Source: Candidatus Nanopelagicus limnes
GTDB lineage: Bacteria > Actinomycetota > Actinomycetes > Nanopelagicales > Nanopelagicaceae
Assembly (NCBI RefSeq): GCF_002287885.2
Contig: NZ_CP016768.2
Coordinates: forward strand, 434,001 to 498,000
Direction: 5' to 3'
Length of the DNA stretch: 64,000 nt
Numbering within the stretch: position 1 is the first letter of the stretch; every line of letters begins with the position of its first letter. The notes below the pieces were generated by a model. The model saw only the letters and a list, made by a program, of their open reading frames with translations, ran no database searches and was not told where the DNA came from. The position numbers and the translations under genes are program-made. Shown here one piece after another: positions 31,828-61,132 of the stretch.

Positions 31828-32763
31828 GTGCCATTGATTGAATCTGAAGCTGGGCTAATAGAGCGCTTGCGCGATCTATTTCATACCTCATTTGAAAATG
31901 GGGTAGAGGTTGGAATTGGTGATGATGGCGCGGTAATTGCTGCCAATAATAATAAATTAGTAGCAACGGTAGACATGGCGGTGGAGGAGATCCACTTTAA
32001 AAGAGAGTGGTCCACACCCTTTCAAATTGGTGCAAAGTTAACTACTGCAAATTTAGCTGATGTCTTTGCCATGGGAGCCACACCTAAATACTTACTTGTA
32101 GCCGCTGCAATAACCGAGGTTAATAACTCCCAAACTGTTACCGATCTTGCAAATGGGATTAGATCAGTTGCTGATAAGTTTAAAGTTTCTGTAATAGGCG
32201 GTGATTTAAGCAAATCTGAAAAAATGAGCCTAAGCATCACAGCGCTCGGTGAGCTATCTGGCAAAGCGATAACTAGGGATGGCGCAAAGGTTGGCGATCT
32301 GGTTTACCTAAGTGCGCTGCCAGGTTTATCCGCAGCAGGGCTAGCGATTTTAACTAGAGGACTTAACCGACCAAAGTATGTCGTTGAGGCGCACCTAAAT
32401 CCAAAATTAGTTGCTCCAAATAATTTAATGAAAGTTGCGAATTCGATGTGTGACATAAGTGATGGCTTAGTTAGCGATGCAGGAAATATTGCAAAAGCAT
32501 CTGGCGTGAATATAGATCTAAGCAAAGAGCTGCTGCAGAAATCAGATGATTACAAGGATCTTGCTGAACTTGCTAGCGAATTAGGTGAGGATGTTTTTGA
32601 TTGGATATTAACTGGCGGTGAAGATCATTTCTTCTTAGCAACAGTCTCTGCCGATAAGGCCAGTGATGATCTTGGCTTATTGGTTGGAAAAGTTGAAGCC
32701 GGAAGTGGTGTTGTGAATTTGGATGGTAAAGCGATTACAAAGGCTGGATACCAGCACTTTTAA
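31828..32763 (+). CDS. thiL: Thiamine-monophosphate kinase
   Basis: Phosphorylates thiamine monophosphate to the active diphosphate. 311 residues of the AIR synthase/ThiL fold, with VGIGDDGAVI near 28-37, VDMAVEEIHF near 48-57, GGDLSKSE near 128-135 and DISDGLVSDAGN near 209-220. The GTG at 31828 is used, but GGGGAG sits directly against it; the TTG two codons later would be better spaced. Ends exactly where the convergent rpmB gene ends. Relevant to the thiamine import system at 60-61 kb. Confidence 0.94.
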   Translation: MPLIESEAGLIERLRDLFHTSFENGVEVGIGDDGAVIAANNNKLVATVDMAVEEIHFKREWSTPFQIGAKLTTANLADVFAMGATPKYLLVAAAITEVNNSQTVTDLANGIRSVADKFKVSVIGGDLSKSEKMSLSITALGELSGKAITRDGAKVGDLVYLSALPGLSAAGLAILTRGLNRPKYVVEAHLNPKLVAPNNLMKVANSMCDISDGLVSDAGNIAKASGVNIDLSKELLQKSDDYKDLAELASELGEDVFDWILTGGEDHFFLATVSADKASDDLGLLVGKVEAGSGVVNLDGKAITKAGYQHF

Positions 32764-59916: not shown

Positions 59917-60462
59917 TTAAGGCACGCCAGATATCGTGTAATCCGCAACTTTATCGGTTAATTCAGCAGAGAAATGTTTATTTTGGTCTTTTAAGAAATT
60001 TAGCATTTCTGTTTTAACCTTCTCGCCATCTCGAGCAATCACCCGTTCAAAACCAGACTCGGCATCAAATTCCACCCAAATGATTCTCGAAAGTATTTTA
60101 CGAAAAGCACTTTGCCCTGCCCCAACACCCTCCAGTAACAAAGTTTGAGTGGGGGCAACTTTTATGGCTTCATCAAAAACGTTTTGATGCCAATTAAATT
60201 TTTTATAAATAACTTCATGGCCCTTTAGAAAAGGATTAAGGATTTCATCACAAACTCGCCTAGTTAAATCCTGTGATAATGGATCCTTCCAGCCACTGTA
60301 TAAATCATCCATATGAACTACTTGGCAATCGGGTATGTCTGACTGCAACTGCAAAGCTAAAGTAGTTTTGCCTGAACCTGCAACGCCATCGATTGCAAAT
60401 ACTCGTGGGGAAGTGGTTTCAATTTTCGCTAGGTTATTAAGTAACGTTTGATAGTTAATCAA
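59917..60462 (-). CDS. P-loop kinase of uridine-kinase type, candidate thiamine-salvage kinase
   Basis: About 181 residues from a TTG at 60462, with Walker A GVAGSGKT at 26-33, an acidic HMDDLY motif in the position of the uridine kinase substrate-binding DSFY, and a LEGVGAGQ strand. An ATG 17 codons earlier would add a tail overlapping pnuT with no family resemblance. It overlaps the pnuT stop by eight bases, so both come under the TPP riboswitch. That context suggests it phosphorylates imported thiamine or a precursor, but family members act on nucleosides, nucleotides and other small alcohols, and the substrate is unproven. Confidence 0.75.
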   Translation of the reverse strand: MINYQTLLNNLAKIETTSPRVFAIDGVAGSGKTTLALQLQSDIPDCQVVHMDDLYSGWKDPLSQDLTRRVCDEILNPFLKGHEVIYKKFNWHQNVFDEAIKVAPTQTLLLEGVGAGQSAFRKILSRIIWVEFDAESGFERVIARDGEKVKTEMLNFLKDQNKHFSAELTDKVADYTISGVP

Positions 60463-61006
60463 TTTTGAATTTTTCAGACTCTTGGCGCCATCGCACCCAG
60501 CCCCAAATGGCAATACCTGTGAAGATTAAATACAAAAAGCCAGTTAAATACAATTCACCTTTAAAGTACTGATAGGTATAGGCAAGATCGACAATTACCC
60601 ACAATGGCCAAGCCTCATATCGTTGCCAAATCATTAGCAATTGGGCAATAACACTGCCGACAAATCCAAAGGATTCAATGGCAGAAGAAGTTGCTCCGAT
60701 ATTTATCAATAATGGCCAGATAGCAAGGGATGACACAATCAAAATTGCCACTAATGAGATTCGCTCTTTTGTGTGAGATTTTCTAGGTTTGACTCCTTTT
60801 GGTCCCCAGCCAAACCAACCCCAAATTCCGCCAGCTATAAAAATGAATTGAAGCGAGGCACTTGCATAGTATTGAGATTGAAAAAACAAGATTGCGTAGA
60901 GAAGAGAACTAACTCCCCACCAAGGCCATGTTATGCGTGGACCTAGCACACCAAGAATTACACCTGTTAGCGAAGTAATAAAAGCGAAAAATTCTAAAAT
61001 AGACAT
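60455..61006 (-). CDS. pnuT: PnuC-family vitamin transporter, probable thiamine transporter PnuT
   Basis: 183-residue membrane protein with about seven helices in the PnuC arrangement: WPWWGVSSLLYAILFFQSQ near 28-46, SLQFIFIAGGIWGWFGW near 51-67 and a matching WPLWVIVDLAYTYQYF half. I use the ATG at 61006, preceded by AAAGGGG at good spacing; the ORF extends 13 codons further but that region is riboswitch. PnuC imports nicotinamide riboside, PnuX riboflavin and PnuT thiamine; the upstream TPP riboswitch points to thiamine. Confidence 0.87.
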   Translation of the reverse strand: MSILEFFAFITSLTGVILGVLGPRITWPWWGVSSLLYAILFFQSQYYASASLQFIFIAGGIWGWFGWGPKGVKPRKSHTKERISLVAILIVSSLAIWPLLINIGATSSAIESFGFVGSVIAQLLMIWQRYEAWPLWVIVDLAYTYQYFKGELYLTGFLYLIFTGIAIWGWVRWRQESEKFKID

Positions 61007-61009
61007 GAT

Positions 61010-61100
61010 GAACCCCTTTCCAATTCGCATTATCGAACTGGTCAACCGGTCGGCCTGAATTTCAAGCCCTCTCAGCTAAATTTCTTAGCTCCCGTGTTAT
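61010..61100 (-). promoter_or_regulatory. TPP riboswitch (THI element) controlling pnuT
   Basis: On the minus strand the leader contains, in order, ACACGGGAGC, a GCTAA-TTAGC stem followed by CTGAGAG, and CGATAATGCG closing a long helix (CCAGTTCG/CGAATTGG), then AAAGGGG. These are the conserved elements of the thiamine pyrophosphate aptamer (CUGAGA loop and GAUAAUGC). The closing AAAGGGG is also the pnuT Shine-Dalgarno, so ligand binding would hide the ribosome site: translational repression when TPP is abundant. Confidence 0.9.
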
Positions 61101-61132
61101 TTATCTTAGCCTAAAAGAAAGTTGTCTATAGT
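61100..61132. promoter_or_regulatory. Overlapping divergent promoters of pnuT (minus) and crtYc (plus)
   Basis: For pnuT: TAGACA (61128-61123) and GATAAA (61105-61100) with 17-base spacing on the minus strand. For crtYc: TATAGT (61127-61132) on the plus strand, six bases before the GTG at 61139. The -35 of one overlaps the -10 of the other, so the two genes may compete for polymerase. Confidence 0.5.

Follow-up and report, generated by a model that had tools for sequence, protein, structure and literature searches.

In the acI lineage, a THI element in front of a PnuC/PnuT gene was published earlier: the strains lack nearly all enzymes of thiamine biosynthesis and salvage, and PnuT was proposed (PMC5301498). 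In Bacteroides thetaiotaomicron, pnuT is paired under a TPP riboswitch with Tnr3, an enzyme that makes TPP (PMC5613172). The locus analysed here lies in a 64,000-nucleotide stretch of the genome of Candidatus Nanopelagicus limnes (hereafter, the window) and has the same riboswitch, transporter, and lineage as the acI case. The acI account makes no mention of a kinase, whereas the operon in the window has one. Since the riboswitch and PnuT were previously published from the same lineage (PMC5301498), only the kinase is new here.

On comparative grounds, we consider it highly probable that the operon works as an import-and-trap module for thiamine, in which the kinase is a thiamine kinase of the uridine-kinase fold, a fold not known for such activity, and ThiL completes its product.

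The riboswitch-pnuT-kinase operon

The TPP riboswitch (61000..61105), pnuT (60455..61006), and the kinase gene (59917..60462) form one operon on the minus strand of the window; the host genome is complete, at 1,238,108 bases (1.24 Mb). The pnuT gene encodes a PnuC-family transporter of 183 amino acids. Its PF04973 match (126 bits against a cut-off of 27.3) upholds the PnuT-like assignment of the first-pass annotation, and the match to the PnuC structure 4qtn is weak (E = 0.022). We infer from the riboswitch that PnuT imports thiamine. The second gene encodes a P-loop protein of 181 amino acids, our candidate thiamine kinase, and runs from a TTG start at 60462 to a stop at 59917. With the pnuT stop at 60455, the two genes overlap by eight bases, just as the first-pass annotation had them. 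The same eight-base offset between pnuT and the kinase gene, with ATG, GTG, or TTG as the start codon, is also found at loci L002-L008 and L018.

That a TPP riboswitch stands ahead of the transporter and the kinase had also been claimed from the sequence, and the Rfam model RF00059 agrees: it matches the leader over its full length (minus strand, 61105-61000) with 41.5 bits (E = 4.8e-7). This is less than the Rfam gathering score of 54.3, and a default scan passes over it. When 23 homologous leaders are aligned, the aptamer cores CUGAGA and UAAUGC are invariant, and 10 out of 19 predicted pairs show two-sided changes that preserve pairing; almost all members of the home family (f1) also have an RF00059 match at the same place. 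The conserved cores, the covariation, and the recurring position establish that the sub-threshold riboswitch is real. It is the only TPP riboswitch that RF00059 finds in the whole genome. A Shine-Dalgarno-like AAAGGGG (61013..61019, minus strand) can be read where the aptamer match reaches its 3′ end, six bases before the pnuT ATG, which suggests that control may be exerted at the start of translation.

The window aptamer and the 22 other leaders make up a divergent TPP subgroup scoring about 29-50 bits, all below the 54.3 cut-off. Their P1 stem is poorly formed and adjoins the ribosome-binding site, and default annotation will miss members of this subgroup.

A probable source of thiamine phosphate for ThiL

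The window also encodes ThiL, the thiamine-phosphate kinase, on the plus strand at 31828..32763 and thus away from the operon; its TIGR01379 match (242 bits, cut-off 184) secures an assignment first made from the open reading frame alone. No match was found in the complete genome to ThiC (PF01964), ThiE (PF02581), or the catalytic domain of thiamine pyrophosphokinase (PF04263). ThiK (TIGR02721) likewise has no match in this genome at E = 1e-5 and none over the cut-off in 60 relatives. The first-pass annotation had proposed to check whether the genome lacks thiC, thiE, and any of the known thiamine kinases, and by these searches it does. ThiL is therefore left without a known source of thiamine phosphate other than the kinase, the gap being defined by the searches for ThiE, ThiC, thiamine pyrophosphokinase, and ThiK.

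ThiK has the aminoglycoside-phosphotransferase (APH) fold, and the window genome encodes three APH-fold proteins. The one examined as a possible hidden ThiK (G000:C1:287903) was rejected: the NCBIfam model that fits it best, at a score below the cut-off, is that of methylthioribose kinase, and TIGR02721 finds nothing.

Could the kinase instead be a pyrophosphokinase that makes TPP directly from thiamine and by-passes ThiL? The pairing of pnuT with the TPP-making Tnr3 in Bacteroides is a precedent for such an operon. However, the fold is that of uridine kinase and NRK, a family known to transfer single phosphate groups. ThiL, moreover, is found in 58 of the 60 relatives and in 18 of 20 tested genomes carrying either the pnuT operon or the ykoEDC operon described below; if a single step yielded TPP, there would be no point in keeping it. 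We regard the direct route as very improbable.

The thiamine kinase reading would work as follows. When TPP is scarce, the riboswitch would permit translation of pnuT and of the overlapping kinase gene. PnuT would admit thiamine by diffusion; the kinase would move phosphate from ATP to thiamine, trapping it as thiamine phosphate; and ThiL would convert thiamine phosphate to TPP. TPP would then close the riboswitch and presumably switch translation off. The first-pass annotation had put forward the kinase as a candidate new thiamine kinase feeding ThiL, and the comparative evidence supports that proposal, with thiamine as the probable substrate.

Outside the home family, the presence of the kinase is independent of ThiE (class-wide test, odds 1.05, P = 0.89), and we dropped complementarity of the kinase and ThiE profiles as an argument beyond f1. 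A salvage enzyme that is present in prototrophs should show such independence, which in itself lends no support. Some genomes with ThiL and without a detectable ThiE, such as G040, also have no kinase. The same combination of missing ThiE and missing kinase is seen in the genomes of family f34 and in a further actinobacterium (G068), which implies a further source of thiamine phosphate or TPP in these organisms. Canibacter oris (L104) has a kinase homolog without a thiamine transporter next to it, and neither ThiL nor ThiE was detected there.

Kinase genes behind two unrelated importers

Among the home-family members examined, almost all have the kinase gene next to pnuT. This adjacency is weak evidence on its own, since the flanking genes, crtB/crtY and pknB, are conserved there too. 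The trio of riboswitch, pnuT, and kinase gene is also present in a second family (f39), between different genes, on the kgd/SDR side. The riboswitches of the f39 trios score 32.7-37.8 bits, and the genomes that carry them have ThiL, with no ThiE found. The first-pass annotation had asked for a conserved gene pair in related genomes, and the pair is thus conserved in two families and two gene neighborhoods. At one locus with the f39 neighborhood (L056, 4001-4516), the kinase gene stands beside SDR and kgd without pnuT, in a genome with ThiL and no ThiE found.

These neighborhoods bear on whether the kinase gene simply belongs to the crtY-pknB region and had pnuT inserted in front of it by chance. 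Two genomes (G026 and G034) do have the kinase gene at the crtY-pknB place without pnuT. The f39 pair, however, lies in another neighborhood, and the same kinase family is found behind ykoEDC in other families, so that chance hitch-hiking appears extremely improbable.

The strongest support for the thiamine kinase reading comes from these other actinobacteria, in which homologous kinases lie directly behind the unrelated importer ykoEDC, with TPP riboswitches upstream. We scanned one genome per species (84,980 species) for homologs of the kinase and obtained 80 loci, with kinase homology as the sole criterion of selection. In six of the 80, the kinase gene comes immediately 3′ of pnuT, and in 17 it immediately follows ykoE-ykoD-ykoC on the same strand (two of these 17 are cut by contig ends and show ykoC alone); the other 57 have no thiamine transporter next door. 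The ykoEDC operons were recognized by reading loci singly, since wrong-strand open reading frames in high-GC genomes muddled the automatic clustering of neighbors. Their hosts are Mycolicibacterium, Mycobacterium, Corynebacterium, Cryobacterium, Agreia, Microcella, Aurantimicrobium, and Brevibacterium. YkoE was identified by PF09819 and by the structure 5edl, "HMP/thiamine permease protein YkoE" (E = 5e-26); the Bacillus subtilis YkoE binds thiamine and was crystallized with it (PMC5037267). A TPP riboswitch above the Rfam gathering score heads nine of the ykoEDC-kinase operons. The logic of the window genome recurs in Aurantimicrobium, with riboswitch, ykoEDC, and kinase gene in order, ThiL present, and no ThiE found. 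Since PnuT and YkoEDC are unrelated and have the kinase as a common partner, the arrangement points to a common cargo, thiamine. We found no report in the open-access literature of the kinase in actinobacterial ykoEDC or pnuT operons, or of a P-loop thiamine kinase; subscription papers and regulon databases may differ.

The cargo might also be a precursor or breakdown product of thiamine, HMP or hydroxyethylthiazole, brought in by the same transporter and phosphorylated by the kinase. Thiamine or a precursor has been suggested as the cargo of YkoEDC, and HMP transporters, too, can stand behind TPP riboswitches. An example of the latter is a home-family genome (G028) with two TPP riboswitches, one heading a CytX-like HMP transporter and the other the ThiE locus. 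Yet this genome, the sole family member to combine such a transporter with ThiE, has no kinase. Furthermore, without ThiE, for which YjbQ is a rarer substitute, phosphorylated precursors could probably not be joined to thiamine phosphate in the window genome or in Aurantimicrobium. In G026 and G034, which have the kinase, the TPP riboswitch heads ThiB/ThiP-like genes, and G026 has both ThiC and ThiE. The patterns in these three genomes indicate that the kinase goes with the import of thiamine and not of its precursors, and we judge a precursor substrate unlikely.

Fold and signature of the kinase and comparison with described enzymes

The first-pass annotation had called the kinase a P-loop protein of uridine-kinase type, and structure prediction agrees. 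The AlphaFold2 model (pLDDT 96.4) has uridine and uridine-cytidine kinases as its top Foldseek matches (3asz, TMq 0.76, probability 1.00), and a profile search adds phosphoribulokinase and NRK1 to the relatives; the protein thus has the fold of the uridine-kinase/NRK superfamily. The closest NCBIfam model, and the nearest named family, is NF005115/PRK06547, "hypothetical protein", which carries no assigned function. The window kinase scores 98 bits where the cut-off is 173, which makes it a divergent relative of this family and not a member; a mycolicibacterial kinase linked to ykoEDC is a full member (221.7 bits).

With uridine-cytidine kinase and nicotinamide riboside kinase, the window kinase has in common the fold, the P-loop, and the HxDD motif. 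It differs from them in its own DxxYxGW and DW motifs and in having no counterpart to the stretch NYDHPDAFD, as seen in a profile alignment to the Thermus thermophilus uridine kinase. In uridine kinases this stretch contains the ribose-binding Asp, and its absence argues against a nucleoside substrate. This matters for the possibility that the protein serves actinobacteria as a general kinase of nucleosides or nicotinamide riboside and just happens to adjoin transporters, as its nearest folds, uridine kinases and NRK1, would allow and as the many actinobacterial family members without thiamine neighbors might suggest. The missing stretch and the position of the kinase beside two unrelated importers under TPP riboswitches make this quite unlikely.

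In a tree of 155 rows, a wide distance separates the pnuT-linked from the ykoEDC-linked kinases, and kinases without a thiamine neighbor lie between them. Both linked groups nevertheless carry a YxGW...W signature. Y54, G56, W57, W90, and E110 are present in all rows of both, and D51 in 100% of the pnuT-linked and 94% of the ykoEDC-linked rows, one of the 17 rows counted as ykoEDC-linked (L100) being near ykoEDC on the opposite strand. Among unlinked kinases, Y54 is present in 49% and G56 in 59%. The unlinked Streptomyces-type branch, without YxGW, may have another role.

One kinase homolog, in a genome of family f3 (L045, 454-2559, minus strand), forms the N-terminal part of a 702-amino-acid protein and is fused there to a C-terminal chorismate-binding enzyme (PF00425, 280 bits). 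Its nearest neighbors in the tree are from Micrococcaceae.

Taken more widely, PRK06547 and its divergent relatives probably form an actinobacterial class of thiamine kinases, unrelated to ThiK, that has been coupled twice independently to importers under TPP riboswitches: to PnuT in freshwater bacteria of the Nanopelagicales type, and to YkoEDC in mycobacteria, corynebacteria, and Microbacteriaceae. If so, the class would fill a known hole between imported thiamine and TPP in thiamine-requiring actinobacteria that have only ThiL, a group that includes the most abundant bacteria of fresh water. A family at present listed as "hypothetical protein" would also receive a name and a reaction, and reconstructions of vitamin requirements in which these genomes count as devoid of thiamine salvage would be corrected.

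Among described systems, the operon may be likened to the pnuT-tnr3 operons of Bacteroidetes, which bring together a TPP riboswitch, PnuT, and a cytoplasmic enzyme that phosphorylates thiamine, the role we propose for the kinase (PMC5613172). The enzymes differ: Tnr3 belongs to another family and makes TPP (PMC5613172), whereas the window has a P-loop kinase and keeps ThiL. In its proposed reaction, the kinase would instead correspond to ThiK (YcfN, TIGR02721) of Escherichia coli, which converts thiamine to thiamine phosphate and so feeds ThiL.
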